Of a stretch of 64,000 bases of DNA, positions 23,448 to 63,909 are shown in pieces (positions within the stretch are counted from its first letter, which is position 1; each line of letters opens with the position of its first letter). A program made the translations under genes and the position numbers. The stretch comes from Terasakiella sp. SH-1 (GTDB lineage Bacteria > Pseudomonadota > Alphaproteobacteria > Rhodospirillales > Terasakiellaceae): assembly GCF_004564135.1 (NCBI RefSeq), contig NZ_CP038255.1, forward strand, positions 94,501 to 158,500, written 5' to 3'. The notes under the pieces are model-generated. The model was not told where the DNA came from, ran no database searches, and saw only the letters and a list, made by a program, of their open reading frames with translations.

Positions 23448-24506
23448 ATGGACCTGCTTGGTAATACGCTTCACCTCTATCTAGAGGCTGCACCCTGGTT
23501 GTTATTCGGCCTGATTATGGCCGGTGTGATCAAAGCCTGGATGTCTGAAAAGGCCGTGCAAAAATATGTCGGCGGGCGGGGTATTGGGTCCATTTTCGGC
23601 GCAGCCTTGTTTGGGGCGCCTTTACCTTTATGTTCTTGTGGGGTGTTACCCGCAGCCGTCGGTATGCGCCGTGCAGGCGGCTCGCGCCCCGCCACGCTGT
23701 CTTTCTTGATCTCTACTCCGGAAACCGGGGTTGATTCTGTGGCCGTATCCTACGCTTTGCTGGGGCCGTTCATGGCAATTGTGCGCCCGATTGCTGCGGT
23801 AAGCAGCGCGGTCTTTACCGGGCTTTTGTCTTTGTTCCTTCCCGAAGAAGATCAAAAGCCTACGCCAGCCGCAGCACCATCGAGCTGCTGTACCAGCACC
23901 TGTTGCGGGTCTTCCAAGCCTGTTGAGCCGAAAAAGCCCAATGCCTTTGTCAAAACCTATGACGGAATTGCGTATGCACTCAGCGATATTCTGGATGATA
24001 TCGCCCTGTGGCTTGGCATCGGCTTGCTGATTGCCGGTGTTGTCACCACCTATGTACCGGAACAGGCGCTGGTGGAATGGGGCAGCGGCCCGCTGGCCAT
24101 GTTGGTCATGCTGGTGGTTGGAATTCCCATGTATATTTGCGCTACAGCTTCCACCCCTTTGGCAGCCAGTTTTTTGTTGGCGGGTGTGTCGCCCGGCGCC
24201 GTGATGGTCTTTTTACTGGCTGGTCCGGCAACCAACATGGCAACCATTGCGGTTGTACGCAACGAAATGGGCACCCGCACCATGTGGGTGTATCTGACAG
24301 GTGTGTGCGTTTCCAGTCTTGCCATTGGCTTTATCGTCAACCAATTGGTGAACCTGTGGGCCATTGATATTCAGGCTGAACTTGCAGCCAGTGCCCATGT
24401 TCTACCCGCCGGAATGGAAGAGGCGTGCGGTATTTTGCTGGCCTTGCTGTTTGTGAAACGCATCCCTGCCATTGTCAGTGCGAAGCTGGCCCCGAGTAAC
24501 GGCTGA
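23448..24506 (+). CDS. DUF318/SO_0444-type permease, possible metal exporter
   Basis: A 352-residue polytopic membrane protein of the permease family that includes ArsP and the SO_0444 Cu/Zn efflux group. Eight or more hydrophobic segments are evident. Motifs are GAPLPLCSCGVLPAAVGMRR, where the Cys-Ser-Cys is characteristic, then STPETGVDS, ATASTPLAASFL and GPATNMAT. Between the two halves lies a Cys-rich cytoplasmic loop (SSCCTSTCCGSSK), likely to bind metal. Located after feoAB and the Cys-rich protein behind a Fur-like site, it may handle excess metal or thiol-binding ions. Substrate unproven. Confidence 0.8.
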   Translation: MDLLGNTLHLYLEAAPWLLFGLIMAGVIKAWMSEKAVQKYVGGRGIGSIFGAALFGAPLPLCSCGVLPAAVGMRRAGGSRPATLSFLISTPETGVDSVAVSYALLGPFMAIVRPIAAVSSAVFTGLLSLFLPEEDQKPTPAAAPSSCCTSTCCGSSKPVEPKKPNAFVKTYDGIAYALSDILDDIALWLGIGLLIAGVVTTYVPEQALVEWGSGPLAMLVMLVVGIPMYICATASTPLAASFLLAGVSPGAVMVFLLAGPATNMATIAVVRNEMGTRTMWVYLTGVCVSSLAIGFIVNQLVNLWAIDIQAELAASAHVLPAGMEEACGILLALLFVKRIPAIVSAKLAPSNG

Positions 24507-32164: not shown

Positions 32165-34834
32165 GTGGAAGATCAAAAAGTATTATTGGATCTGGAAGAC
32201 GAACTGGAAGACAACGTTCCAGAATATTGCAGCCTTGAAATCCGCAAATACCTTCTGTTTGTCGGTTTGATCGCTGCCATGATCCTTGTTGGTACCTTCT
32301 GGTATATCAACTATTACAAAGAAGGCATCGGTGTTGAAACCGCTGCTGTGGCACTGGGCAATGACACTGCTGTGACTGAAACGTCAAAGCAGTTTGCCCA
32401 GCCCACGGGTCCCAAGGCGCAGCTGGTGAACTGGTTCCCGCGCCAACCGGGTGGGGCTGCACCGGGCTTTGGTGTGTCTGTTCCTTCTATGGGGAACCCG
32501 CTGATCCCGGCTGCAATGCCGATGGGTCAAGCTGGTATGCCGGTTGCTATGCCTGTGGCGATGCCAGGTGGCAAGAAAGCACCTAAGGCGCTCAAGGGTG
32601 GTTTTGCCTCTGTTGCTGATGTGATCCACGATAGTGTGGTCAATATTTCAGCTGTTCGTGGGGTCGGTCCACAAGCACCACAAAATAAGCCTAATCCGGC
32701 TATGGGTAATATTTTCAGTAATCCGTTTTCCGGGCGTTCTTTTGAGAATATCGGTTCCGGCGTAATTGTGCGCGACGACGGATACATTGTAACGAACTAT
32801 CACATCATCCGGGACGCTGGTTCCGTCACCGTAAATGTCTTTACGGGTGATTTGACAGATCGTTATCCTGCAACCGTTATCAAGCTCGATGAAGTGCTTG
32901 ATTTGGCGTTGCTGAAAATCGAACCGAAAAAACCACTGACAGCAGGTATTCTGGCCAACAGTGATCTGGTCAAGGTTGCCGATGAGGTGATCGCTGTGGG
33001 CAGCCCCTTTGGTCTCAGCCAAACGGTCAGCCGTGGCATTATCTCTGCCAAGCGTAAATCATTGACCATTGAAAATATTACGCACGCGAACCTGTTGCAG
33101 ACAGATGCGGCCATTAACCAGGGGAACTCCGGTGGCCCGCTTGTCGGTGCAATGGGTCAGGTCGTCGGGATTAATACGGCGATCTATACGCCAACAGGCT
33201 CTTTTGCCGGGATTGGTTTTGCTGTTCCCAGTAATCAGGTTCGTACTTTCTTGCTCGAACAAATCAATGGCCTGCCGACACGCGTTAAAAAACCGATGAT
33301 GCAGACTGTGGCGATGCCGCAAGGGGGCGCGATGGCACCGCCGATTGCAGCCAATGCCAAGCCGCCGCATACGGATGGCCGTGAAATGATGGATTGTCAG
33401 ACTTGTCACCAGATCACAGGTGGTGGTGTTGCGGCACAGACTGTGGCTTTGACCAAGCGTCAGATGCGTCAAGGCCCACCGATTGCAGCCAATGCCAAAA
33501 GCCCGCATGGCGATGAGCGTGATCAAATGAACTGTGCCATGTGTCACCAGATTAATGGGGGCCCGAAAACCGCAAATGGTAAGCGTCCGGGCATGCAGGT
33601 TGTGGCTTTGACCAAACGTCAGATGCGCCAAGGCCCGCCGATTGCACCGAATGCACGTAACCCGCATAATGATGAACGTGCGCAGATGAATTGTGCCATG
33701 TGTCACCAATTCACAGGCAACGGCCAGCAAGCCGCAGCAGGTGGTCAGCCTGCCATGCAAGCTGTGGCCTTGACCAAACGTCAGATGCGTCAAGGTCCCC
33801 CGATTGCGGCCAATGCGCGTAACCCGCATAATGATGAACGTGCCAAGATGAATTGTGCGATGTGTCACCAGATCAATGGCGGTGGACAGCCCGCAGGTCG
33901 TCCGGTTGCCATGACACAGCCCACTGGGGCACCGCCAATTCCGGCCAATGCCAAGCCACCCCATACAGATGGGCGTGAGACCATGAACTGTGCAACTTGT
34001 CACCAGATCATTGGGGCAGGTGGAGCAACGCCAGCGGCTTTTAACTATTCCTTTGCAGGTCCGAACAAATCCTTCGGCCTGAATGTAGCAGCCCCGCAAT
34101 TCGGTGGTATGACAAAGGAAATGAATAAAGCTACATTGCCGGCCCGCGATTTTTTTATCCAGGGCGCTAGTGTTCTGCCAATCGATTCACCGTTGGTGCA
34201 GCACAATGGTCCCAGTCCGGGGCGAGGCGTCTTTGTAAATAAAGTTATGCCAAATTCACCAGCGGATATGGCTGGGATTAAAATCAGTGACATTATCCTG
34301 CGTGTGGATGGGCGTCGTGTGAATTCTCCGTTAGAGATGACGCAAGCGATGGACAAAATCCTTGTCGGGGATCCGGTGCGTTTGACGGTGATGCATAAAG
34401 GGCGTCGTGCTGATCTTGAATTGATCAAGAAAAAAGCTCCAACCCTGAAAGATATGCAGACCATGCAGCAAGCTGCGGTTCAGCAAAAGCCGAACACACC
34501 AACCTTGCGCAAAAAAGCACAGGCACAGATCAAACAACCTGTTCCGACAGAATTTAACTGGCGTGGCATTGAGGTTGAAAACTTCCGCCGTCCCACCCCG
34601 GCAGACTCTCCGATGGGTAAACAACCCGGTGGGGCCATTGTGGGGGATGTGACACGGGGCTCCCCTGCTGAACGTGCGGGGGTCATGCGCAATGATGTGA
34701 TTCTTGAGGTCAATGCCCGTTCTGCCAAAAATGCGAAGAAATTCAATAAAGCGATTAAAAAAGCGCGAGAAGAGCGTATGATCGTTTTGAGAATTGATCG
34801 TGCAGGCCAAGAAAAGTTCCTTGTGTTGCGCTGA
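32165..34834 (+). CDS. mamE: Magnetosome serine protease MamE with five haem-binding motifs
   Basis: MamE is an HtrA-type protease that activates crystal growth and processes other Mam proteins. This one has 889 residues, longer than the roughly 730-770 of Magnetospirillum. A membrane helix at about 30-48 follows the GTG start. The trypsin-like domain keeps the whole triad: His213 (VTNYHII), Asp246 (VLDLALLKI) and Ser322 (NQGNSGGPLVG). Five CXXCH haem motifs follow at residues 411, 457, 510, 564 and 609, each in a repeat with PPIAANAK..PH.DxRxxMNC. Two PDZ domains complete the protein (about 680-760 and 810-889). Known MamE has two such magnetochrome motifs, so the expansion is unusual. It lies between mamI and the J-like genes. 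Confidence 0.95.
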   Translation: MEDQKVLLDLEDELEDNVPEYCSLEIRKYLLFVGLIAAMILVGTFWYINYYKEGIGVETAAVALGNDTAVTETSKQFAQPTGPKAQLVNWFPRQPGGAAPGFGVSVPSMGNPLIPAAMPMGQAGMPVAMPVAMPGGKKAPKALKGGFASVADVIHDSVVNISAVRGVGPQAPQNKPNPAMGNIFSNPFSGRSFENIGSGVIVRDDGYIVTNYHIIRDAGSVTVNVFTGDLTDRYPATVIKLDEVLDLALLKIEPKKPLTAGILANSDLVKVADEVIAVGSPFGLSQTVSRGIISAKRKSLTIENITHANLLQTDAAINQGNSGGPLVGAMGQVVGINTAIYTPTGSFAGIGFAVPSNQVRTFLLEQINGLPTRVKKPMMQTVAMPQGGAMAPPIAANAKPPHTDGREMMDCQTCHQITGGGVAAQTVALTKRQMRQGPPIAANAKSPHGDERDQMNCAMCHQINGGPKTANGKRPGMQVVALTKRQMRQGPPIAPNARNPHNDERAQMNCAMCHQFTGNGQQAAAGGQPAMQAVALTKRQMRQGPPIAANARNPHNDERAKMNCAMCHQINGGGQPAGRPVAMTQPTGAPPIPANAKPPHTDGRETMNCATCHQIIGAGGATPAAFNYSFAGPNKSFGLNVAAPQFGGMTKEMNKATLPARDFFIQGASVLPIDSPLVQHNGPSPGRGVFVNKVMPNSPADMAGIKISDIILRVDGRRVNSPLEMTQAMDKILVGDPVRLTVMHKGRRADLELIKKKAPTLKDMQTMQQAAVQQKPNTPTLRKKAQAQIKQPVPTEFNWRGIEVENFRRPTPADSPMGKQPGGAIVGDVTRGSPAERAGVMRNDVILEVNARSAKNAKKFNKAIKKAREERMIVLRIDRAGQEKFLVLR

Positions 34835-34872: not shown

Positions 34873-36702
34873 ATGGCAAACGATCCGAAAGATCAGAAAG
34901 AGGCCCCTGAACAGGAGCAGTTTGATATGTTGGCAGGCAGTGAGCCGGAGCCAAAGCCCAAAGCTGCGCCTAAGAAGCCTCCGGCAAAGAAAACTGCCGA
35001 GGTAAGGGACGAGCCGAAAGAGGATTCTGAAACGGAAAGCAAGCCTGCATCTCCAAAAGCGCCGACAAAGCCCAAGGCAACGCCGCGTAAAACGGCAACG
35101 GCGACCAAGGCAGCTGCCAAAAAGGTTGAAGATGATAAAGCTGCGCAAGATAAGCCAGCGGCGAAGAAAGCGACAACAAGATCGACTGTAAAACCACAAG
35201 CAACTTCAAAAAAAGAAGAAGAGGCTGAGGTCGTCGAAAAAAAGTCTGCTGCCAAAAAAGAAACTGCGAAGACGCCAACAAAGGCAAGGACAGCCTCTTC
35301 AACAGTGAAGTCTACAACGACAAAGAAAACAACCAAAACCACAACAACTAAGGCGAAGCCAAAACCAAAGGCCGAGCCTGTTGAGGAAAAGAAAGAAGCT
35401 GTTGTTGAAGAAAAAAAGCCTGAACCTATTTCACCGCTTTTGATGGATGCCTTTAATGTCTCGCCTTGGGCCGGGGCACTCATGGGGCAGGGTGCACAGC
35501 CCATTATTCAGCCTGATGAAATTATCAAGGTGCCGGAAGCTGAACTGATTGTGGAAGAAAAGCCGCAAATTACACCTGAGACCCCCCCCGCAGATCCGGT
35601 CAATTCTGTTAGTGCAGAACCTATTCATGTGGAAACTGTCAAGGCCCCTGTTGCAGAAGAAAAAACGGTTGAAAAACAGCCTGAGCCCACAAAAGTTGAA
35701 GCCAAGGCCGAAGAAAATAAACCGGAAAAAACAGTAGAGCCTGCAAAAGTACAAGAACCAGCCAAGCCTGTGTTCAAAAATGCCAGTGGCGCAACAATTG
35801 ATTCGCCCTGGAAGACGTTCAACAATGAACCTGCACAGCAAACCAGTGACAGCGAAACCATTACCTATAAGGCACACGCTAAACCAGTAGAGCCTGCTGT
35901 TGTCATTCGCAGTTCGACAACGCCAATACCTGCGCCTGCTCAGTCTTCTCCCCCTATGGAACCTGTAGCAACAGTCAAACGCCGCCTTAAACGTGGTGAA
36001 CGTAAGGCCATGCGGGCTGAAAATATTGAACATTGGCTACATGAAAATGGGGATGGTGAGATTCCAACACGAACCCCTTCGCAGCCAACTGTAGGGGCTA
36101 AACAGCCAGCAGCCCCCGTTGAAAAAACGTCTGAGCCTGCACAAAAGCCGAAAGCATCAATTCCATGGCGTGAACCAGAAGCGGTTATTCCGCCAGAACT
36201 GGCCAAGGTGCAGATTGAACAGGCAGCTGCCAAGCCGCGTGTATCAAAACGTAAAAAGCCGACAGCGTGGGATGGGAATCCGGCGACAGAAACAAAACGA
36301 TTATCTGAACGTCTGGCAGAAGAACAGCCGGAAAGACAGCCGCAGGATATCGCGGTTGAAGGTATGGCTATCGGTATTATCAATGCCCTTGGTGATGGGG
36401 TGGAGGCTGTTGTCGATACGGCAAAAGGGGCTGTGGCCTCAATCGGGGAGCAGCCGACACGTCATTTGGATAAGGATGAAGTCTTAGTTGAAAACATTGC
36501 CCGAGGCACGGTTGATGCCTTGGGAAGTGGGGTGGAAGCCATTGTGGATGCAGGCACCTGTGCGGTCAAAGGGATCGGCATGGGGATTGATTGCGGCGTG
36601 CAATCTGTGAAAGGCGGCGTAACCCGGATAAAAAATGCCGGAAGCGGTGCTGCACACGGTTTTGTGGATGGAATCAAAAAGCCTACATCTTCAAAGGATT
36701 GA
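34873..36702 (+). CDS. mamJ: MamJ-like acidic chain-assembly protein (1)
   Basis: The 609-residue protein is of low complexity, rich in Lys, Pro, Ala and Glu (KKPPAKKTAEV, TTKKTTKTTTTKAK). The C-terminal part has two related segments, AIGIINALGDGVEAVVDTAK and ARGTVDALGSGVEAIVDAGT, and ends in a Gly-rich amphipathic stretch. The same motif occurs in the next gene. The position between mamE and mamK is that of mamJ, whose acidic repeat protein ties magnetosomes to the MamK filament. The bulk of the sequence does not align with Magnetospirillum MamJ by eye, so the name rests on position, composition and the LGDGxEA segment. Confidence 0.65.
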   Translation: MANDPKDQKEAPEQEQFDMLAGSEPEPKPKAAPKKPPAKKTAEVRDEPKEDSETESKPASPKAPTKPKATPRKTATATKAAAKKVEDDKAAQDKPAAKKATTRSTVKPQATSKKEEEAEVVEKKSAAKKETAKTPTKARTASSTVKSTTTKKTTKTTTTKAKPKPKAEPVEEKKEAVVEEKKPEPISPLLMDAFNVSPWAGALMGQGAQPIIQPDEIIKVPEAELIVEEKPQITPETPPADPVNSVSAEPIHVETVKAPVAEEKTVEKQPEPTKVEAKAEENKPEKTVEPAKVQEPAKPVFKNASGATIDSPWKTFNNEPAQQTSDSETITYKAHAKPVEPAVVIRSSTTPIPAPAQSSPPMEPVATVKRRLKRGERKAMRAENIEHWLHENGDGEIPTRTPSQPTVGAKQPAAPVEKTSEPAQKPKASIPWREPEAVIPPELAKVQIEQAAAKPRVSKRKKPTAWDGNPATETKRLSERLAEEQPERQPQDIAVEGMAIGIINALGDGVEAVVDTAKGAVASIGEQPTRHLDKDEVLVENIARGTVDALGSGVEAIVDAGTCAVKGIGMGIDCGVQSVKGGVTRIKNAGSGAAHGFVDGIKKPTSSKD

Positions 36703-51711: not shown

Positions 51712-51909
51712 TGAAATCTCTTTTCTCGCCAGATTGAATGAATTGCAACTTATAGAAATGCAATTAAAAAGGCAATAATCTGAAGTTAATTAAAATTTTA
51801 ATAAATAATTTTTAGTTGCGTTTTGATTTTATATTGATACATAAGATTGGTTAATTCGTATTTATAATTGTATTTTATTGTTCTTTCGCTGCTAAACAGG
51901 AGGGGTGTT
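51712..51909. promoter_or_regulatory. AT-rich divergent promoter region
   Basis: The 198 bases between the secretion operon and the RTX gene are very AT-rich (for example TTAATTAAAATTTTAATAAA at 51785), unlike all sequence on either side. It must hold promoters in both directions. No clear operator was found; such composition is typical of regions bound by H-NS-like silencers. The RTX gene has a strong AGGAGGGG ribosome-binding site at 51898-51905. Confidence 0.5.
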
Positions 51910-54900
51910 ATGTCCGTTGAATATACCGGTGGGAATGGGTCTGAAACTATTATTGGTAGTGATGAGGCAGATACGATCGAGGCCAAAGGTGGCAACGATT
52001 ATGTCTCCGGTGGCGATGGTGATGACCATATCCTTGGGGGCAGCGGCAATGACCGCCTCGATGGCAATGCCGGTGATGATGTGATCACTGGCGGTGACGG
52101 CAGTGATGTTCTTAATGGTGGTTCCGGTTCTGACACCTATGTGTGGAACAATGGCGATGACCGTGATGCCTATCGCGACAACGGCAAGGATGGTCAGGAC
52201 ACGATTGTCAGTACGTCGCAGAACTTTGATGGTCTACAGGCGAGCTTTAATGCCAAGAGCCACGGGATTGAAGCGATTGAACGCGATAATGGCGGTGATC
52301 TGACGGTTCGCGGTACGGACGGTAAGGAAAGCTGGAACTTCACTGGCGCAGATCTGCAAGACGGCAGCAAAATCAGCACCAAGGGCGGGAACGACACGGT
52401 CTATGGTTCTGCCAATTCTGAAACCATTGATGCCGGCAGCGGCAACGATTATGTCTCCGGTGGCGATGGTGATGACCATATCCTTGGGGGCAGCGGCAAT
52501 GACCGTCTGGATGGCAATGCCGGTGATGATGTGATCACTGGCGGTGACGGCAGTGATGTTCTTAATGGTGGTTCCGGTTCTGACACCTATGTGTGGAACA
52601 ATGGCGATGACCGTGATGCCTATCGCGACAACGGCAAGGATGGTCAGGACACGATTGTCAGTACGTCGCAGAACTTTGATGGTCTGCAATCCAGCTTTAA
52701 TGCCAAGAGCCACGGGATTGAAGCGATTGAACGCGACAATGGCGGTGATCTGACGGTTCGCGGTACGGACGGTAAGGAAAGCTGGAACTTCACTGGCGCA
52801 GATCTGCAAGACGGCAGCAAAATCAGCACCAAGGGCGGGAACGACACGGTCTATGGTTCGGCCAATTCTGAAACCATTGATGCCGGCAGCGGCAACGATT
52901 ATGTCTCCGGCGGTGAAGGTGATGACCATATCCTTGGGGGCAGTGGCAATGACCGCCTTGATGGTAATGCCGGTGATGATGTGATCACTGGCGGTGACGG
53001 CAGTGATGTTCTCAATGGTGGTTCCGGTTCTGACACCTATGTGTGGAACAATGGCGATGACCGTGATGCCTATCGCGACAACGGCAAGGATGGTCAGGAC
53101 ACGATTGTCAGTACGTCGCAGAACTTTGATGGTCTACAGGCGAGCTTTAATGCCAAGAGCCACGGGATTGAAGCGATTGAACGCGACAATGGCGGTGATC
53201 TGACGGTTCGCGGTACGGACGGTAAGGAAAGCTGGAACTTCACTGGCGCAGATCTGCAAGACGGCAGCAAAATCAGCACCAAGGGCGGGAACGACACGGT
53301 CTATGGTTCTGCCAATTCTGAAACCATTGATGCCGGCAGCGGCAACGATTATGTCTCCGGCGGTGAAGGTGATGACCATATCCTTGGGGGCAGTGGCAAT
53401 GACCGCCTTGATGGTAATGCCGGTGATGATGTGATCACTGGCGGTGACGGCAGTGATGTTCTCAATGGTGGTTCCGGTTCTGACACCTATGTGTGGAACA
53501 ATGGCGATGACCGTGATGCCTATCGCGACAACGGCAAGGATGGTCAGGACACGATTGTCAGTACGTCGCAGAACTTTGATGGTCTACAGGCGAGCTTTAA
53601 TGCCAAGAGCCACGGGATTGAAGCGATTGAACGCGATAATGGCGGTGATCTGACGGTTCGCGGTACGGACGGTAAGGAAAGCTGGAACTTCACTGGCGCA
53701 GATCTGCAAGACGGCAGCAAAATCAGCACCAAGGGCGGGAACGACACGGTCTATGGTTCTGCCAATTCTGAAACCATTGATGCGGGCAGCGGCAACGATT
53801 ATGTCTCCGGTGGCGATGGTGATGACCATATCCTTGGGGGCAGCGGCAATGACCGCCTCGATGGCAATGCCGGTGATGATGTGATCACTGGCGGTGACGG
53901 CAGTGATGTTCTCAATGGTGGTTCCGGTTCTGACACCTATGTGTGGAACAATGGCGATGACCGTGATGCCTATCGCGACAACGGCAAGGATGGTCAGGAC
54001 ACGATTGTCAGTACGTCGCAGAACTTTGATGGTCTACAGGCGAGCTTTAATGCCAAGAGCCACGGGATTGAAGCGATTGAACGCGATAATGGCGGTGATC
54101 TGACGGTTCGCGGTACGGACGGTAAGGAAAGCTGGAACTTCACTGGCGCAGATCTGCAAGACGGCAGCAAGATCAGCACCAAGGGCGGGAACGACACGGT
54201 CTATGGTTCTGCCAATTCTGAAACCATTGATGCAGGCAGCGGCAACGATTATGTCAAAGGCGGGGACGGCTATGACACGTTGCTTGGCGGTTCTGGCAAC
54301 GACCGTCTTTACGGTAATACGGGCAATGACTGGTTGAACGGTGGTTCTGGCAGTGATGTTGTTGATGGTGGTAGCGGCGTTGATGTGTCTGAGTTTTCAG
54401 GCAAGATTCAAAATTATGAAGTGACGAAGCTGTCTGGAGAAAAATATCGGGTTAAGAACTTACGTAATGGGGAAATCGATACTGTTGTCGGTGTGGAACG
54501 CCTTAAATTCGATGATGGATTTGTCTTCTTTCAGGAAAATCAGGAACCTGTTGCTGAATATTTTGAAACAATCATTGCTGAGGATGCACCTCTTTTAGAA
54601 AGTTCTGTCGTTGCCTCTGATCTTGACGGTGATCGCCTGGTCTTCTCTTTACTAAGTGATGTTCCTGCTGGACTCACATTTAATACGGATGGCACTTTCA
54701 GTTTCGATGCTTCTCATGCTGCTTATCAGCATTTGGCTGTGGGCGAAGAAGCAATTATTCAATTTACCTATCAGGTGGAAGATGGCTTTGGTGGAAGTGA
54801 TAGCCAGAGCGCCAGTATTATCGTGACAGGGACAAATGATGTGCCTGTGGCTGTTATGGACGAAGCTACAACAGATGAAGATACGGCCATCTTGATTGAT

Positions 54901-57900
54901 GTCTTGGCAAACGACACAGATGTTGATCAAAGCGATACGCATACCATTGAAAGTGTTGAGATCCTTTCTGGGCAAGGAAATGTTAGTATCGCTGATAATA
55001 AGCTTCGCTTTGATCCCGGTGCTGCATATCAAGAACTTGAAAGTGGGGATGTTGCTACAGTAACCCTTTCCTATACTATGCGTGATGCTCATGGCGCCCT
55101 GAGTACAGCCACGGTTGATATTAATGTTGATGGCTTGGCTGAGATGGGCCTTGGCCCCGTCATGCAGGCATCTGCTCATGAAGAGCTTGTGAACACGCGT
55201 GTGATTGATGCGCAGTCCAATCCGGATACGACGGCGTTGAAAGACGGTGGTTATGTGGTGAGCTGGACGTCGAACAATCAGGATGGGTCCGGTGCAGGGG
55301 TTTATGCCCAGCGTTTTGATAGCGATGGTCATCCGCAAGGTGTTGAGTTCCGTGCCAACAGCCGGACTTCTCATGGGCAATTCCATTCAGCGGTTGCCAG
55401 CCTTGAAGATGGCGGCTTTGTCATGACGTGGGAAAGCCAGCATCAGGACGGGTCGGATTCAGGGATTTACCATCAGCGTTTTGATGCACAGGGCAACCGG
55501 GTTGGTGCAGAAGGGCTGGTCAACAGCTATACCCCTCATAATCAGACCCGTCCGGAAATCACCGGTCTGGCCGATGGTGGGTATGTGATCACCTGGCAGT
55601 CGCAGCATCAGGATGGCTCTGGCTATGGGGCGTATGCGCAACGTTACGATGCGCAGGGCAACAAGTTTGGCAAGGAGTTCATGCTGAGTGATGTGGGCAG
55701 TGGTGATCAGGCTTACCTGGATGTTACGTCCCTTGAAGACGGTGGCTTTGTTGCAACCTGGGGCTCGCGTGGGGACATTCGAGCACAGGTGTTTGATGCC
55801 GACAGCGAACGTGTGAATGGTGGCGAGGTTCTGGTCAACCTGCAGACGCGTGACGATCAGAATGAACCGAAGATTTCTGCACTAAGTGGCGGTGGCTTTG
55901 TGGTGAGCTGGCACAGCAAAAACCATGATGGCGATGGGTATGGCGTTTATACACGTCGTTTTGATGCCAAGGGTCAGGCGATTGATACACGTGATGTGCT
56001 GGTGAACCAGTATGTTCGCTCCAATCAAATGCATAGCAGCGTGACGGGCCTGGATGACGGTGGTTATTTTGTGACCTGGTCGTCTTATGGTCAGGATGGC
56101 GACAACTGGGGTGTTTATGGGCGTCGTTATAGTGTTGACGGTCAGGCCATGGGCAATGAGTTCCGGATGAACAATTACACGGGCAGTTGGCAGATTGCCC
56201 CTGATGTGTCCAGCCTTGAAGACGGTTCTGTACTTGTAACCTGGCATTCCCATGGTCAGGACGGTTCCAACGACGGGATCTATAGCAAGATCTATCGCTT
56301 CACCGATGAAGGCATGCTGGTCGAAGGCACAAACGGCGACGACGTTCTGTCCGGTGCACGCGGTGATGACACTCTGGTCGGCGGTGCCGGTGATGATGTG
56401 GTTGAGTTCAGCGGGGCACGTGAGGATTATTCCATCGTGCAAACCAGCAACGGTCTGGTGGTCAGCGATAAGCGTCTGGTCGGTCAGGGCGATGGCCGTG
56501 ACGTGCTGCAAGAGATTGAGACCCTGCGCTTTAGCGATGGGGACTATAGTGTGGCCGATGCTCTGGGTGTGCGTGATCTCGGTGCTGTCATGCAGGCATC
56601 TGCTCATGAAGAGCTTGTGAACACGCGTGTGATTGATGCGCAGTCCAATCCGGATACAACGGCGTTGAAAGACGGTGGTTATGTGGTGAGCTGGACGTCG
56701 AACAATCAGGATGGTTCTGGTGCAGGGGTTTATGCCCAGCGTTTTGATAGCGATGGTCATCCGCAAGGTGTTGAGTTCCGTGCCAACAGCCGGACTTCTC
56801 ATGGGCAATTCCATTCAGCGGTTGCCAGCCTTGAAGATGGCGGCTTTGTCATGACGTGGGAAAGCCAGCATCAGGACGGGTCGGATTCAGGGATTTACCA
56901 TCAGCGTTTTGATGCACAGGGCAACCGGGTTGGTGCAGAAGGGCTGGTCAACAGCTATACCCCTCATAATCAGACCCGTCCGGAAATCACCGGTCTGGCC
57001 GATGGTGGGTATGTGATCACCTGGCAGTCGCAGCATCAGGATGGCTCTGGCTATGGGGCGTATGCGCAACGTTACGATGCGCAGGGCAACAAGTTTGGCA
57101 AGGAGTTCATGCTGAGTGATGTGGGCAGTGGTGATCAGGCTTACCTGGATGTTACGTCCCTTGAAGACGGTGGCTTTGTTGCAACCTGGGGCTCGCGTGG
57201 GGACATTCGAGCACAGGTGTTTGATGCCGACAGCGAACGTGTGAATGGTGGCGAGGTTCTGGTCAACCTGCAGACGCGTGACGATCAGAATGAACCGAAG
57301 ATTTCTGCACTAAGTGGCGGTGGCTTTGTGGTGAGCTGGCACAGCAAAAACCATGATGGCGATGGGTATGGCGTTTATACACGTCGTTTTGATGCCAAGG
57401 GTCAGGCGATTGATACACGTGATGTGCTGGTGAACCAGTATGTTCGCTCCAATCAAATGCATAGCAGCGTGACGGGCCTGGATGACGGTGGTTATTTTGT
57501 GACCTGGTCGTCTTATGGTCAGGATGGCGACAACTGGGGTGTTTATGGGCGTCGTTATAGTGTTGACGGTCAGGCCATGGGCAATGAGTTCCGGATGAAC
57601 AATTACACGGGCAGTTGGCAGATTGCCCCTGATGTGTCCAGCCTTGAAGACGGTTCTGTACTTGTAACCTGGCATTCCCATGGTCAGGACGGTTCCAACG
57701 ACGGGATCTATAGCAAGATCTATCGCTTCACCGATGAAGGCATGCTGGTCGAAGGCACAAACGGCGACGACGTTCTGTCCGGTGCACGCGGTGATGACAC
57801 TCTGGTCGGCGGTGCCGGTGATGATGTGGTTGAGTTCAGCGGGGCACGTGAGGATTATTCCATCGTGCAAACCAGCAACGGTCTGGTGGTCAGCGATAAG

Positions 57901-60900
57901 CGTCTGGTCGGTCAGGGCGATGGCCGTGACGTGCTGCAAGAGATTGAGACCCTGCGCTTTAGCGATGGGGACTATAGTGTGGCCGATGCTCTGGGTGTGC
58001 GTGATCTCGGTGCTGTCATGCAGGCATCTGCTCATGAAGAGCTTGTGAACACGCGTGTGATTGATGCGCAGTCCAATCCGGATACAACGGCGTTGAAAGA
58101 CGGTGGTTATGTGGTGAGCTGGACGTCGAACAATCAGGATGGTTCTGGTGCAGGGGTTTATGCCCAGCGTTTTGATAGCGATGGTCATCCGCAAGGTGTT
58201 GAGTTCCGTGCCAACAGCCGGACTTCTCATGGGCAATTCCATTCAGCGGTTGCCAGCCTTGAAGATGGCGGCTTTGTCATGACGTGGGAAAGCCAGCATC
58301 AGGACGGGTCGGATTCAGGGATTTACCATCAGCGTTTTGATGCACAGGGCAACCGGGTTGGTGCAGAAGGGCTGGTCAACAGCTATACCCCTCATAATCA
58401 GACCCGTCCGGAAATCACCGGTCTGGCCGATGGTGGGTATGTGATCACCTGGCAGTCGCAGCATCAGGATGGCTCTGGCTATGGGGCGTATGCGCAACGT
58501 TACGATGCGCAGGGCAACAAGTTTGGCAAGGAGTTCATGCTGAGTGATGTGGGCAGTGGTGATCAGGCTTACCTGGATGTTACGTCCCTTGAAGACGGTG
58601 GCTTTGTTGCAACCTGGGGCTCGCGTGGGGACATTCGAGCACAGGTGTTTGATGCCGACAGCGAACGTGTGAATGGTGGCGAGGTTCTGGTCAACCTGCA
58701 GACGCGTGACGATCAGAATGAACCGAAGATTTCTGCACTAAGTGGCGGTGGCTTTGTGGTGAGCTGGCACAGCAAAAACCATGATGGCGATGGGTATGGC
58801 GTTTATACACGTCGTTTTGATGCCAAGGGTCAGGCGATTGATACACGTGATGTGCTGGTGAACCAGTATGTTCGCTCCAATCAAATGCATAGCAGCGTGA
58901 CGGGCCTGGATGACGGTGGTTATTTTGTGACCTGGTCGTCTTATGGTCAGGATGGCGACAACTGGGGTGTTTATGGGCGTCGTTATAGTGTTGACGGTCA
59001 GGCCATGGGCAATGAGTTCCGGATGAACAATTACACGGGCAGTTGGCAGATTGCCCCTGATGTGTCCAGCCTTGAAGACGGTTCTGTACTTGTAACCTGG
59101 CATTCCCATGGTCAGGACGGTTCCAACGACGGGATCTATAGCAAGATCTATCGCTTCACCGATGAAGGCATGCTGGTCGAAGGCACAAACGGCGACGACG
59201 TTCTGTCCGGTGCACGCGGTGATGACACTCTGGTCGGCGGTGCCGGTGATGATGTGGTTGAGTTCAGCGGGGCACGTGAGGATTATTCCATCGTGCAAAC
59301 CAGCAACGGTCTGGTGGTCAGCGATAAGCGTCTGGTCGGTCAGGGCGATGGCCGTGACGTGCTGCAAGAGATTGAGACCCTGCGCTTTAGCGATGGGGAC
59401 TATAGTGTGGCCGATGCTCTGGGTGTGCGTGATCTCGGTGCTGTCATGCAGGCATCTGCTCATGAAGAGCTTGTGAACACGCGTGTGATTGATGCGCAGT
59501 CCAATCCGGATACAACGGCGTTGAAAGACGGTGGTTATGTGGTGAGCTGGACGTCGAACAATCAGGATGGTTCTGGTGCAGGGGTTTATGCCCAGCGTTT
59601 TGATAGCGATGGTCATCCGCAAGGTGTTGAGTTCCGTGCCAACAGCCGGACTTCTCATGGGCAATTCCATTCAGCGGTTGCCAGCCTTGAAGATGGCGGC
59701 TTTGTCATGACGTGGGAAAGCCAGCATCAGGACGGGTCGGATTCAGGGATTTACCATCAGCGTTTTGATGCACAGGGCAACCGGGTTGGTGCAGAAGGGC
59801 TGGTCAACAGCTATACCCCTCATAATCAGACCCGTCCGGAAATCACCGGTCTGGCCGATGGTGGGTATGTGATCACCTGGCAGTCGCAGCATCAGGATGG
59901 CTCTGGCTATGGGGCGTATGCGCAACGTTACGATGCGCAGGGCAACAAGTTTGGCAAGGAGTTCATGCTGAGTGATGTGGGCAGTGGTGATCAGGCTTAC
60001 CTGGATGTTACGTCCCTTGAAGACGGTGGCTTTGTTGCAACCTGGGGCTCGCGTGGGGACATTCGAGCACAGGTGTTTGATGCCGACAGCGAACGTGTGA
60101 ATGGTGGCGAGGTTCTGGTCAACCTGCAGACGCGTGACGATCAGAATGAACCGAAGATTTCTGCACTAAGTGGCGGTGGCTTTGTGGTGAGCTGGCACAG
60201 CAAAAACCATGATGGCGATGGGTATGGCGTTTATACACGTCGTTTTGATGCCAAGGGTCAGGCGATTGATACACGTGATGTGCTGGTGAACCAGTATGTT
60301 CGCTCCAATCAAATGCATAGCAGCGTGACGGGCCTGGATGACGGTGGTTATTTTGTGACCTGGTCGTCTTATGGTCAGGATGGCGACAACTGGGGTGTTT
60401 ATGGGCGTCGTTATAGTGTTGACGGTCAGGCCATGGGCAATGAGTTCCGGATGAACAATTACACGGGCAGTTGGCAGATTGCCCCTGATGTGTCCAGCCT
60501 TGAAGACGGTTCTGTACTTGTAACCTGGCATTCCCATGGTCAGGACGGTTCCAACGACGGGATCTATAGCAAGATCTATCGCTTCACCGATGAAGGCATG
60601 CTGGTCGAAGGCACAAACGGCGACGACGTTCTGTCCGGTGCACGCGGTGATGACACTCTGGTCGGCGGTGCCGGTGATGATGTGGTTGAGTTCAGCGGGG
60701 CACGTGAGGATTATTCCATCGTGCAAACCAGCAACGGTCTGGTGGTCAGCGATAAGCGTCTGGTCGGTCAGGGCGATGGCCGTGACGTGCTGCAAGAGAT
60801 TGAGACCCTGCGCTTTAGCGATGGGGACTATAGTGTGGCCGATGCTCTGGGTGTGCGTGATCTCGGTGCTGTCATGCAGGCATCTGCTCATGAAGAGCTT

Positions 60901-63900
60901 GTGAACACGCGTGTGATTGATGCGCAGTCCAATCCGGATACAACGGCGTTGAAAGACGGTGGTTATGTGGTGAGCTGGACGTCGAACAATCAGGATGGTT
61001 CTGGTGCAGGGGTTTATGCCCAGCGTTTTGATAGCGATGGTCATCCGCAAGGTGTTGAGTTCCGTGCCAACAGCCGGACTTCTCATGGGCAATTCCATTC
61101 AGCGGTTGCCAGCCTTGAAGATGGCGGCTTTGTCATGACGTGGGAAAGCCAGCATCAGGACGGGTCGGATTCAGGGATTTACCATCAGCGTTTTGATGCA
61201 CAGGGCAACCGGGTTGGTGCAGAAGGGCTGGTCAACAGCTATACCCCTCATAATCAGACCCGTCCGGAAATCACCGGTCTGGCCGATGGTGGGTATGTGA
61301 TCACCTGGCAGTCGCAGCATCAGGATGGCTCTGGCTATGGGGCGTATGCGCAACGTTACGATGCGCAGGGCAACAAGTTTGGCAAGGAGTTCATGCTGAG
61401 TGATGTGGGCAGTGGTGATCAGGCTTACCTGGATGTTACGTCCCTTGAAGACGGTGGCTTTGTTGCAACCTGGGGCTCGCGTGGGGACATTCGAGCACAG
61501 GTGTTTGATGCCGACAGCGAACGTGTGAATGGTGGCGAGGTTCTGGTCAACCTGCAGACGCGTGACGATCAGAATGAACCGAAGATTTCTGCACTAAGTG
61601 GCGGTGGCTTTGTGGTGAGCTGGCACAGCAAAAACCATGATGGCGATGGGTATGGCGTTTATACACGTCGTTTTGATGCCAAGGGTCAGGCGATTGATAC
61701 ACGTGATGTGCTGGTGAACCAGTATGTTCGCTCCAATCAAATGCATAGCAGCGTGACGGGCCTGGATGACGGTGGTTATTTTGTGACCTGGTCGTCTTAT
61801 GGTCAGGATGGCGACAACTGGGGTGTTTATGGGCGTCGTTATAGTGTTGACGGTCAGGCCATGGGCAATGAGTTCCGGATGAACAATTACACGGGCAGTT
61901 GGCAGATTGCCCCTGATGTGTCCAGCCTTGAAGACGGTTCTGTACTTGTAACCTGGCATTCCCATGGTCAGGACGGTTCCAACGACGGGATCTATAGCAA
62001 GATCTATCGCTTCACCGATGAAGGCATGCTGGTCGAAGGCACAAACGGCGACGACGTTCTGTCCGGTGCACGCGGTGATGACACTCTGGTCGGCGGTGCC
62101 GGTGATGATGTGGTTGAGTTCAGCGGGGCACGTGAGGATTATTCCATCGTGCAAACCAGCAACGGTCTGGTGGTCAGCGATAAGCGTCTGGTCGGTCAGG
62201 GCGATGGCCGTGACGTGCTGCAAGAGATTGAGACCCTGCGCTTTAGCGATGGGGACTATAGTGTGGCCGATGCTCTGGGTGTGCGTGATCTCGGTGCTGT
62301 CATGCAGGCATCTGCTCATGAAGAGCTTGTGAACACGCGTGTGATTGATGCGCAGTCCAATCCGGATACAACGGCGTTGAAAGACGGTGGTTATGTGGTG
62401 AGCTGGACGTCGAACAATCAGGATGGTTCTGGTGCAGGGGTTTATGCCCAGCGTTTTGATAGCGATGGTCATCCGCAAGGTGTTGAGTTCCGTGCCAACA
62501 GCCGGACTTCTCATGGGCAATTCCATTCAGCGGTTGCCAGCCTTGAAGATGGCGGCTTTGTCATGACGTGGGAAAGCCAGCATCAGGACGGGTCGGATTC
62601 AGGGATTTACCATCAGCGTTTTGATGCACAGGGCAACCGGGTTGGTGCAGAAGGGCTGGTCAACAGCTATACCCCTCATAATCAGACCCGTCCGGAAATC
62701 ACCGGTCTGGCCGATGGTGGGTATGTGATCACCTGGCAGTCGCAGCATCAGGATGGCTCTGGCTATGGGGCGTATGCGCAACGTTACGATGCGCAGGGCA
62801 ACAAGTTTGGCAAGGAGTTCATGCTGAGTGATGTGGGCAGTGGTGATCAGGCTTACCTGGATGTTACGTCCCTTGAAGACGGTGGCTTTGTTGCAACCTG
62901 GGGCTCGCGTGGGGACATTCGAGCACAGGTGTTTGATGCCGACAGCGAACGTGTGAATGGTGGCGAGGTTCTGGTCAACCTGCAGACGCGTGACGATCAG
63001 AATGAACCGAAGATTTCTGCACTAAGTGGCGGTGGCTTTGTGGTGAGCTGGCACAGCAAAAACCATGATGGCGATGGGTATGGCGTTTATACACGTCGTT
63101 TTGATGCCAAGGGTCAGGCGATTGATACACGTGATGTGCTGGTGAACCAGTATGTTCGCTCCAATCAAATGCATAGCAGCGTGACGGGCCTGGATGACGG
63201 TGGTTATTTTGTGACCTGGTCGTCTTATGGTCAGGATGGCGACAACTGGGGTGTTTATGGGCGTCGTTATAGTGTTGACGGTCAGGCCATGGGCAATGAG
63301 TTCCGGATGAACAATTACACGGGCAGTTGGCAGATTGCCCCTGATGTGTCCAGCCTTGAAGACGGTTCTGTACTTGTAACCTGGCATTCCCATGGTCAGG
63401 ACGGTTCCAACGACGGGATCTATAGCAAGATCTATCGCTTCACCGATGAAGGCATGCTGGTCGAAGGCACAAACGGCGACGACGTTCTGTCCGGTGCACG
63501 CGGTGATGACACTCTGGTCGGCGGTGCCGGTGATGACACCTACTTGTTTGAGCTTGGTGATGGAAATGATTTAATTATCAACCATAATGAAGGCGCAAGT
63601 AACGATACCCTTTTGTTTGGAGAGCAAATTGACAAAGATCAGTTGTGGTTCTCGCGTGATGGCAATGACCTGAAGGTACAAGTTATTGGGACGAAGGATA
63701 CTATCGTTGTTGATGATTGGTACGAGGATAATGGTGCCAATCAGGTTGCTGAATTTGAAACATCAACAGGTGACACGATAACGTCTACCAATGTGGAGAA
63801 CCTCGTACAGGCAATGGCTAGCTTTACTGCACCAATTGAGGGCGAAATGGAGCTGTCTCAGGATTTGCAAGGAGCACTCGATCCGGTTATTGCTGCAAAT

Positions 63901-63909
63901 TGGGAGTAA
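51910..63909 (+). CDS. Giant RTX calcium-binding, repeat-rich secreted protein
   Basis: A 3999-residue protein with ATG at 51910 after AGGAGGGG; a start at 51868 is open but lacks this site. Residues about 1-777 are RTX-rich: five copies of a 150-residue unit with GGxGxDxLxG nonapeptides (GGSGNDRLDGNAGDDVITGG) and a spacer domain. Residues about 876-1077 are cadherin/VCBS-like domains (VVASDLDGDRL, DVLANDTDVDQSD). Residues about 1083-3875 are six near-identical 476-residue units. Each has seven W-containing strands of the form DGGFVVTWxSxxQDGSxxGVY, like a seven-bladed propeller, then RTX nonapeptides. The C-terminus (DDTYLFELGDGNDLIINHNE to VENLVQAMASFTAP and DPVIAANWE) is a typical type I secretion end. 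It is probably a surface adhesin, exported by the divergent operon. Confidence 0.93.
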   Translation: MSVEYTGGNGSETIIGSDEADTIEAKGGNDYVSGGDGDDHILGGSGNDRLDGNAGDDVITGGDGSDVLNGGSGSDTYVWNNGDDRDAYRDNGKDGQDTIVSTSQNFDGLQASFNAKSHGIEAIERDNGGDLTVRGTDGKESWNFTGADLQDGSKISTKGGNDTVYGSANSETIDAGSGNDYVSGGDGDDHILGGSGNDRLDGNAGDDVITGGDGSDVLNGGSGSDTYVWNNGDDRDAYRDNGKDGQDTIVSTSQNFDGLQSSFNAKSHGIEAIERDNGGDLTVRGTDGKESWNFTGADLQDGSKISTKGGNDTVYGSANSETIDAGSGNDYVSGGEGDDHILGGSGNDRLDGNAGDDVITGGDGSDVLNGGSGSDTYVWNNGDDRDAYRDNGKDGQDTIVSTSQNFDGLQASFNAKSHGIEAIERDNGGDLTVRGTDGKESWNFTGADLQDGSKISTKGGNDTVYGSANSETIDAGSGNDYVSGGEGDDHILGGSGNDRLDGNAGDDVITGGDGSDVLNGGSGSDTYVWNNGDDRDAYRDNGKDGQDTIVSTSQNFDGLQASFNAKSHGIEAIERDNGGDLTVRGTDGKESWNFTGADLQDGSKISTKGGNDTVYGSANSETIDAGSGNDYVSGGDGDDHILGGSGNDRLDGNAGDDVITGGDGSDVLNGGSGSDTYVWNNGDDRDAYRDNGKDGQDTIVSTSQNFDGLQASFNAKSHGIEAIERDNGGDLTVRGTDGKESWNFTGADLQDGSKISTKGGNDTVYGSANSETIDAGSGNDYVKGGDGYDTLLGGSGNDRLYGNTGNDWLNGGSGSDVVDGGSGVDVSEFSGKIQNYEVTKLSGEKYRVKNLRNGEIDTVVGVERLKFDDGFVFFQENQEPVAEYFETIIAEDAPLLESSVVASDLDGDRLVFSLLSDVPAGLTFNTDGTFSFDASHAAYQHLAVGEEAIIQFTYQVEDGFGGSDSQSASIIVTGTNDVPVAVMDEATTDEDTAILIDVLANDTDVDQSDTHTIESVEILSGQGNVSIADNKLRFDPGAAYQELESGDVATVTLSYTMRDAHGALSTATVDINVDGLAEMGLGPVMQASAHEELVNTRVIDAQSNPDTTALKDGGYVVSWTSNNQDGSGAGVYAQRFDSDGHPQGVEFRANSRTSHGQFHSAVASLEDGGFVMTWESQHQDGSDSGIYHQRFDAQGNRVGAEGLVNSYTPHNQTRPEITGLADGGYVITWQSQHQDGSGYGAYAQRYDAQGNKFGKEFMLSDVGSGDQAYLDVTSLEDGGFVATWGSRGDIRAQVFDADSERVNGGEVLVNLQTRDDQNEPKISALSGGGFVVSWHSKNHDGDGYGVYTRRFDAKGQAIDTRDVLVNQYVRSNQMHSSVTGLDDGGYFVTWSSYGQDGDNWGVYGRRYSVDGQAMGNEFRMNNYTGSWQIAPDVSSLEDGSVLVTWHSHGQDGSNDGIYSKIYRFTDEGMLVEGTNGDDVLSGARGDDTLVGGAGDDVVEFSGAREDYSIVQTSNGLVVSDKRLVGQGDGRDVLQEIETLRFSDGDYSVADALGVRDLGAVMQASAHEELVNTRVIDAQSNPDTTALKDGGYVVSWTSNNQDGSGAGVYAQRFDSDGHPQGVEFRANSRTSHGQFHSAVASLEDGGFVMTWESQHQDGSDSGIYHQRFDAQGNRVGAEGLVNSYTPHNQTRPEITGLADGGYVITWQSQHQDGSGYGAYAQRYDAQGNKFGKEFMLSDVGSGDQAYLDVTSLEDGGFVATWGSRGDIRAQVFDADSERVNGGEVLVNLQTRDDQNEPKISALSGGGFVVSWHSKNHDGDGYGVYTRRFDAKGQAIDTRDVLVNQYVRSNQMHSSVTGLDDGGYFVTWSSYGQDGDNWGVYGRRYSVDGQAMGNEFRMNNYTGSWQIAPDVSSLEDGSVLVTWHSHGQDGSNDGIYSKIYRFTDEGMLVEGTNGDDVLSGARGDDTLVGGAGDDVVEFSGAREDYSIVQTSNGLVVSDKRLVGQGDGRDVLQEIETLRFSDGDYSVADALGVRDLGAVMQASAHEELVNTRVIDAQSNPDTTALKDGGYVVSWTSNNQDGSGAGVYAQRFDSDGHPQGVEFRANSRTSHGQFHSAVASLEDGGFVMTWESQHQDGSDSGIYHQRFDAQGNRVGAEGLVNSYTPHNQTRPEITGLADGGYVITWQSQHQDGSGYGAYAQRYDAQGNKFGKEFMLSDVGSGDQAYLDVTSLEDGGFVATWGSRGDIRAQVFDADSERVNGGEVLVNLQTRDDQNEPKISALSGGGFVVSWHSKNHDGDGYGVYTRRFDAKGQAIDTRDVLVNQYVRSNQMHSSVTGLDDGGYFVTWSSYGQDGDNWGVYGRRYSVDGQAMGNEFRMNNYTGSWQIAPDVSSLEDGSVLVTWHSHGQDGSNDGIYSKIYRFTDEGMLVEGTNGDDVLSGARGDDTLVGGAGDDVVEFSGAREDYSIVQTSNGLVVSDKRLVGQGDGRDVLQEIETLRFSDGDYSVADALGVRDLGAVMQASAHEELVNTRVIDAQSNPDTTALKDGGYVVSWTSNNQDGSGAGVYAQRFDSDGHPQGVEFRANSRTSHGQFHSAVASLEDGGFVMTWESQHQDGSDSGIYHQRFDAQGNRVGAEGLVNSYTPHNQTRPEITGLADGGYVITWQSQHQDGSGYGAYAQRYDAQGNKFGKEFMLSDVGSGDQAYLDVTSLEDGGFVATWGSRGDIRAQVFDADSERVNGGEVLVNLQTRDDQNEPKISALSGGGFVVSWHSKNHDGDGYGVYTRRFDAKGQAIDTRDVLVNQYVRSNQMHSSVTGLDDGGYFVTWSSYGQDGDNWGVYGRRYSVDGQAMGNEFRMNNYTGSWQIAPDVSSLEDGSVLVTWHSHGQDGSNDGIYSKIYRFTDEGMLVEGTNGDDVLSGARGDDTLVGGAGDDVVEFSGAREDYSIVQTSNGLVVSDKRLVGQGDGRDVLQEIETLRFSDGDYSVADALGVRDLGAVMQASAHEELVNTRVIDAQSNPDTTALKDGGYVVSWTSNNQDGSGAGVYAQRFDSDGHPQGVEFRANSRTSHGQFHSAVASLEDGGFVMTWESQHQDGSDSGIYHQRFDAQGNRVGAEGLVNSYTPHNQTRPEITGLADGGYVITWQSQHQDGSGYGAYAQRYDAQGNKFGKEFMLSDVGSGDQAYLDVTSLEDGGFVATWGSRGDIRAQVFDADSERVNGGEVLVNLQTRDDQNEPKISALSGGGFVVSWHSKNHDGDGYGVYTRRFDAKGQAIDTRDVLVNQYVRSNQMHSSVTGLDDGGYFVTWSSYGQDGDNWGVYGRRYSVDGQAMGNEFRMNNYTGSWQIAPDVSSLEDGSVLVTWHSHGQDGSNDGIYSKIYRFTDEGMLVEGTNGDDVLSGARGDDTLVGGAGDDVVEFSGAREDYSIVQTSNGLVVSDKRLVGQGDGRDVLQEIETLRFSDGDYSVADALGVRDLGAVMQASAHEELVNTRVIDAQSNPDTTALKDGGYVVSWTSNNQDGSGAGVYAQRFDSDGHPQGVEFRANSRTSHGQFHSAVASLEDGGFVMTWESQHQDGSDSGIYHQRFDAQGNRVGAEGLVNSYTPHNQTRPEITGLADGGYVITWQSQHQDGSGYGAYAQRYDAQGNKFGKEFMLSDVGSGDQAYLDVTSLEDGGFVATWGSRGDIRAQVFDADSERVNGGEVLVNLQTRDDQNEPKISALSGGGFVVSWHSKNHDGDGYGVYTRRFDAKGQAIDTRDVLVNQYVRSNQMHSSVTGLDDGGYFVTWSSYGQDGDNWGVYGRRYSVDGQAMGNEFRMNNYTGSWQIAPDVSSLEDGSVLVTWHSHGQDGSNDGIYSKIYRFTDEGMLVEGTNGDDVLSGARGDDTLVGGAGDDTYLFELGDGNDLIINHNEGASNDTLLFGEQIDKDQLWFSRDGNDLKVQVIGTKDTIVVDDWYEDNGANQVAEFETSTGDTITSTNVENLVQAMASFTAPIEGEMELSQDLQGALDPVIAANWE
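51991..54240 (+). repeat. Five tandem 450-bp coding repeats
   Basis: Copies start at 51991, 52441, 52891, 53341 and 53791 at GGCAACGATTATGTC, each exactly 450 bases. They differ by a few scattered bases. The next unit at 54241 diverges after GTCAAAGGCGG. Within the RTX gene, each unit encodes about 150 residues: RTX nonapeptides plus a SDTYVWNNGDDRDAYRDNGK spacer domain. Confidence 0.97.
55159..63536 (+). repeat. Six tandem 1428-bp coding repeats (last one partial)
   Basis: CATGCAGGCATCTGCTCATG recurs at 55161, 56589, 58017, 59445, 60873 and 62301, exactly 1428 bases apart. Copies 2-6 read as identical wherever compared; the first differs at a few bases (for example ATACGACGG for ATACAACGG near 55228). 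The sixth ends after 1238 bases at 63536, where the C-terminal region begins. The 1428-bp unit is 476 codons, so the frame is kept through all copies. Confidence 0.97.

Follow-up and report, generated by a model that had tools for sequence, protein, structure and literature searches.

The reading frame examined here raises the question of whether five CXXCH motifs crowded into one gene of Terasakiella sp. SH-1 belong to a genuine MamE, how unusual that number is, and what the additional haem motifs might do in a protein involved in magnetosome formation. The window, i.e., the whole 64-kb stretch of DNA that was analysed, contains the following features of this gene.

32165..34834, + strand: mamE, 889 aa, GTG start; an ORF whose best family is NCBIfam MamE
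32225..32320, + strand: N-terminal membrane helix, residues 21-52; a hydrophobic stretch that is also a helix in the predicted model
32753..33172, + strand: trypsin-like domain, residues 197-336, with triad H213, D246, S322; PF13365, 8.7e-30
33338..33427, + strand: magnetochrome (MCR) unit R1, outer, DGR type, CQTCH at 33395-33409; PF18509, 57.1 bits
33443..33487, + strand: linker VALTKRQMRQGPPIA before R2; comparison of linker sequences
33476..33562, + strand: MCR unit R2, middle, DER type, CAMCH at 33533-33547; PF18509, 46.2 bits
33602..33646, + strand: linker VALTKRQMRQGPPIA before R3; comparison of linker sequences
33635..33721, + strand: MCR unit R3, middle, DER type, CAMCH at 33692-33706; PF18509, 43.8 bits
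33764..33808, + strand: linker VALTKRQMRQGPPIA before R4; comparison of linker sequences
33797..33883, + strand: MCR unit R4, middle, DER type, CAMCH at 33854-33868; PF18509, 45.9 bits
33932..34021, + strand: MCR unit R5, outer, DGR type, CATCH at 33989-34003; PF18509, 60.7 bits
34208..34423, + strand: first PDZ domain, residues 682-753; PF13180

Judged by its architecture, operon place, and best family, and not by the NF040960 cut-off, the SH-1 protein is a divergent MamE. Five PF18509 stretches lie between the trypsin-like domain (ending at residue 336) and the first PDZ domain (starting at 682), PF13180 matches two stretches with the second PDZ domain C-terminal to the first (Pfam), and the triad represented here by H213, D246, and S322 is invariant across 14 aligned MamE proteins. 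The match to NF040960 (MamE) reaches 737.8 bits in three pieces, with the next family at 313.6 bits. This is below the equivalog cut-off of 800 bits set for this family, to which Magnetospirillum MamE belongs, probably because the array splits the match into three pieces. The cut-off is also strict, since it is passed by just 1 of 19 other genomes (a set chosen for having no MamE captured earlier). According to NCBIfam, mamE is preceded by MamH and followed by MamK, MamM, MamO, MamP, MamA, and MamQ, and the published SH-1 mamAB map, in its accessible passages, agrees with this order (PMC6819731). Pfam domains, operon place, and best family thus all support the original prediction, which had identified the product as MamE with five MCR repeats between protease and PDZ; the CXXCH positions that it gave (residues 411, 457, 510, 564, and 609, from the start of the first motif at 33395 to the end of the last at 34003) are also correct.

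Other ORFs of the window deserve a brief description. Between mamE and mamK lies a 609-aa ORF rich in Lys, Ala, Glu, and Pro (34873-36702, + strand), which matched no NCBIfam family and has a homologue near mamE in the congener G002 (54% over residues 187-609). In Magnetospirillum this place between mamE and mamK is occupied by mamJ, according to passages of PMC6783814. The ORF is a candidate MamJ-like linker. Another ORF of 4013 aa (51868-63909, + strand) is rich in GGxGxDxL-type repeats, which we take to be the RTX-type motif, and at 51991-54255 it contains five units of 450 bp with 98% similarity; further ORFs recur every 1428 bases. It appears to encode a large secreted or surface protein of the RTX type.

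As for the MCR units themselves, all five exceed the PF18509 family cut-off of 30.4 bits (43.8-60.7 bits) and match the minimal MCR motif [P/T/H]H-X5-9-CXXCH, searched with a regular expression that also allowed up to two residues before H. A six-frame scan of the whole window reports 10 CXXCH motifs, including five in MamE, two in mamP, and those at 24032 and 45495 in short frames; with so few in 64 kb, five evenly spaced ones in a single frame are not a matter of chance. The longer published MCR pattern, which requires [GN] after H and by which almost all MCRs were harvested according to its authors (PMC3971196), is matched by R1 and R5, whereas R2-R4 fail. These three units read D-E-R, while most MCR units read D-G-R: among 175 units, 97 are DGR, 7 DNR, and 6 DER, with 65 fitting none of these, and DER is confined to R2-R4 of SH-1 and G002. 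The outer and middle units also differ around the haem motif, so that MNCAMCHQ, ascribed earlier to every repeat, is found in R2-R4, but R1 reads MDCQTCHQ and R5 MNCATCHQ. The reported similarity of linkers across repeats 1-4 is confirmed, with VALTKRQMRQG identical in the three linkers between R1 and R4 and absent from the linker between R4 and R5.

To estimate how common five units are, MamE-type frames were collected from three sets of genomes (order, 317; class, 385; phylum, 398) and from 27 loci found with one pattern, a scope that excludes Nitrospirota and Desulfobacterota. Frames were counted if they combined the protease Ser motif with CXXCH, the others being dropped before the final set of 92 was reached; phylum-level genomes whose MamE-type frames were initially missing were searched again, some of them yielding none. 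The 92 distinct frames contain one motif in 25 cases, two in 49, three in 13, four in 2, and five in 2, the latter being SH-1 and G002, and a single frame from a gammaproteobacterial MAG (L057) has one motif before the protease and five after it. Within the family, SH-1 and G002 are also the two of six genomes that have magnetochromes. In terms of the sequences surveyed, five lies at the upper end of a continuous range, a number attained at least twice. The view that known MamE has two motifs is therefore incorrect, as both the literature (one to four, PMC3971196) and the survey (one to six) indicate. No published report of a MamE with five MCRs was found in the literature searched, including the accessible passages of PMC6819731, PMC12724286, PMC6783814, PMC12791574, and PMC4287615, with subscription papers (such as that on the PR-1 genome and Quinlan 2011) outside this scope. 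The five repeats, however, had been presented as novel unless close relatives shared them, and their presence in G002 makes them a lineage trait. Beyond MamE, three MCR matches each were observed in two non-protease frames, G815:C113:1808-2185 (182 aa) and G704:C4:49929-50273 (321 aa); unit number appears to vary in MamT- or MamX-like proteins as well.

The number of units is labile. In a maximum-likelihood tree computed without the array for 84 of the 92 frames, it changed at least 19 times, with at least four changes between the classes 1-3 and 4-6, although long branches make single placements unsure, and adjacent counts are found inside one genus (three units in L037, two in L142). A range of one to six units and at least 19 changes fit poorly with the published idea that magnetochromes are paired since magnetite needs two electrons (PMC3971196). 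The same lability favours neutral turnover, according to which any MCR number of one or more is tolerated, and a flexible linker under low constraint happened to end up with five units, by slippage or by unequal crossing-over, without functional gain.

The two MamE proteins are 79.9% identical over 866 aligned residues and use the same codon at 363 of 664 identical residues. Within SH-1, R2-R4 have a DNA identity of 77-86%, falling to 59-71% at third positions, which marks the duplication as old. Hence, of the recent tandem duplication proposed earlier, the tandem duplication stands, but these identities and the same layout in the congener contradict its recency. A DNA tree of the ten units separates the six middle units from the four outer ones with support of 100/100. 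Among the 129 sites of the middle units, 7 are fixed species differences, 4 pair SH-1 R2 with G002 R3 against all others, and 1 pairs SH-1 R2 with G002 R2, a pattern that would be expected if units had been homogenised within each genome and their order reshuffled between the species. The middle units of G002 form one clade (81/99), while those of SH-1 do not, and constraining the latter to one clade gives p-AU of 0.0486, against a single clade; homogenisation is thus stronger in G002. As for the outer units, the G002 R1 protein is closer to SH-1 R5 (85%) than to SH-1 R1 (76%). SH-1 R3 and G002 R4 have the same codon at 20 of 22 identical residues, in comparison with 10.5 expected from the rest of the gene, and this synonymous similarity may be due to conversion, transfer, or codon constraint. 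Plasmid transfer of the array was also considered and rejected, as tblastn against the plasmid collection returned no match.

Codon changes in the linker were counted over 15 codons, starting one or two residues before VALTKRQM. Across the middle units, 14 of 16 variable linker codons are synonymous (6 of 7 in SH-1 and 8 of 9 in G002), and neutral simulations produced so few replacements in 3 of 5000 runs for SH-1 and 0 of 5000 for G002. For the MCR core the ratio of synonymous to replacement changes equals 7:8 and 3:3, respectively (42 and 505 of 5000 simulations), and constraint is visible by simulation in SH-1 only. Based on these codon counts, the linker VALTKRQM is under purifying selection, which suggests that it belongs to the functional unit. 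Both the conservation of linker and motif residues and the retention of five units in SH-1 and G002, despite the limited codon sharing given above, argue against neutral turnover, which is conceivable but on the whole doubtful. On sequence grounds, the five-unit MamE is a lineage-level variant of a known protein, neither unique nor recent, and the features that appear to be absent from the literature searched are the DER subtype, concerted evolution, and the conserved basic linker.

The reading we favour, and consider probable, is that of an ordinary magnetosome HtrA-type MamE whose MCR linker has been enlarged to five one-haem modules, giving a flexible multi-haem tether. Each CXXCH would bind one haem c covalently, the second ligand being the histidine of the upstream PH, and attachment would proceed via the Ccm system, of which CcmF scores above the cut-off in both the SH-1 and G002 genomes. 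In the structure of MamP, itself a ferroxidase, every MCR forms a domain with a single haem, whose sixth ligand is the PH histidine (PMC3971196). By analogy, five units would correspond to five one-electron sites in MamE. In the magnetosome lumen the array would link protease and PDZ like beads on a flexible string, single electrons passing between it and either the iron pool or the proteins MamP, MamX, and MamT, while unequal exchange between repeats, together with gene conversion, would shift its unit number. The AlphaFold2 model, in which protease and PDZ are confident and the array has mostly pLDDT <50 with short helices at CXXCH, suggests haem beads on a flexible tether, although the model places no haem. 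A comparison of the array with PDB sequences gave no match at E 0.001, though MamP structures are published.

Under the same reading, extra units would add haems and tether length and leave the basic role of MamE unchanged. According to passages of PMC4794232, AMB-1 MamE is needed for magnetite formation, and its active site is required for the cleavage of MamE, MamO, and MamP. Haem-site mutants of AMB-1 MamE show partial complementation only (PMC3971196), and AMB-1 MamE restores magnetite in the MSR-1 mamE deletion, as described in the accessible part of PMC10470508. Since MamE of the AMB-1 type has two units, haems beyond that number are dispensable for basic function. The longer electron path or larger redox capacity suggested by the original prediction would be compatible with the sequence. 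A broader version sees in the MamE MCR region a quickly evolving, modular array of several haems, with lineage-specific tuning of both the number and the type of units. In Terasakiella, the new DER subtype with its conserved basic linker would have been amplified to three copies and homogenised by gene conversion, and the array would act as a redox buffer or short molecular wire controlling the balance of Fe(II) to Fe(III) and thereby crystal growth; taken in full, this is rather unlikely.

Tether length might also matter in itself. If the units counted only as tether length between protease and PDZ (e.g., for substrate reach or oligomer geometry), haem chemistry of the extra ones would be incidental, and the flexible linker of the predicted model, the conserved linker segments, and the reliance of MamE, MamO, and MamP proteolysis on the MamE active site (accessible passages of PMC4794232) would all be in line with this. 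Selection on length alone, however, should let motifs decay, yet CXXCH and the PH histidine are kept in all five units of both species, which makes this explanation improbable.

CXXCH is the haem attachment signal in cytochrome c maturation, and its presence in R2-R4 bears on the proposal that the DER units are degenerate and bind no normal haem, leaving R1 and R5 to work alone in a functionally two-haem MamE. The failure of R2-R4, but not of R1 and R5, against the longer MCR pattern and the restriction of DER to 6 of 175 units, all from Terasakiella, agree with it; however, with 43.8-46.2 bits these units lie above the cut-off of 30.4 and keep both PH and CXXCH, and the proposal is very unlikely. 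An assembly artefact was offered originally as an alternative; tandem repeats, which can be wrongly multiplied or collapsed, are a known source of error, but here an artefact is hardly credible at all: the middle units differ at 14-23% of nucleotides and other units more, the genome is a single contig of 3,832,570 bases, published as a single 3,832,570-bp chromosome from PacBio and Illumina reads, both mamAB operons were re-sequenced by PCR with mamAB-1 products, which may not span all of mamE, 100.0% identical to the template (PMC6819731), and the independently assembled G002 has five units as well.

With MamE thus read as carrying an enlarged array of one-haem modules, the natural variants with one to five units represent a ready series on haem number versus crystal growth, for which the MSR-1 mamE-deletion complementation assay is in print (accessible part of PMC10470508). 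If unit number proves to be without effect, ordinary repeat turnover would be the appropriate description.

In comparison with known systems, SH-1 MamE shares with MamE of Magnetospirillum/Paramagnetospirillum (NF040960) the trypsin-like domain with its triad, the MCR linker, PDZ, and the mamAB context, but has five CXXCH motifs in contrast to two in the 732-aa frames and three in the 776-aa frame of G126, a genome that we take to be MSR-1. The three motifs of the latter frame (L028, G126:C1) are to be compared with two given for MSR-1 in PMC3971196, and its length with the 772 aa of MSR-1 MamE reported in passages of PMC10470508. The MamE-like protein Amb0410 from the magnetotaxis islet of AMB-1 also has an enlarged MCR array between protease and PDZ; unlike SH-1 MamE, it is a paralogue beside a two-unit MamE, and every unit is DGR. 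The frame L027 from G144, presumably AMB-1, has four CXXCH motifs. Four is also the number in print for Amb0410 (PMC3971196). L057 (JADFYS010000184.1, MAG nER1bin10) likewise has five MCRs between trypsin and PDZ, but differs from SH-1 in the sixth MCR before the protease, in its DGR units, and in the coverage of 2.0 given in the record title; being distant on the tree, it represents a separate expansion. MamP, MamT, and MamX have magnetochromes of the same family (PF18509), and two-CXXCH frames are found elsewhere in the SH-1 genome, but these proteins lack the protease and usually have paired MCRs. A record titled Terasakiella sp. PR1 (L055, CACVCF010000323.1) contains MamE of the three-unit Magnetospirillum type and is possibly mislabelled. 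MamE of G002, an 878-aa frame with five MCRs, resembles SH-1 in having two outer units of DGR type and three middle ones of DER type, and differs from it in middle units that consistently read GPAISATA and KCTMCH and in its even linkers.
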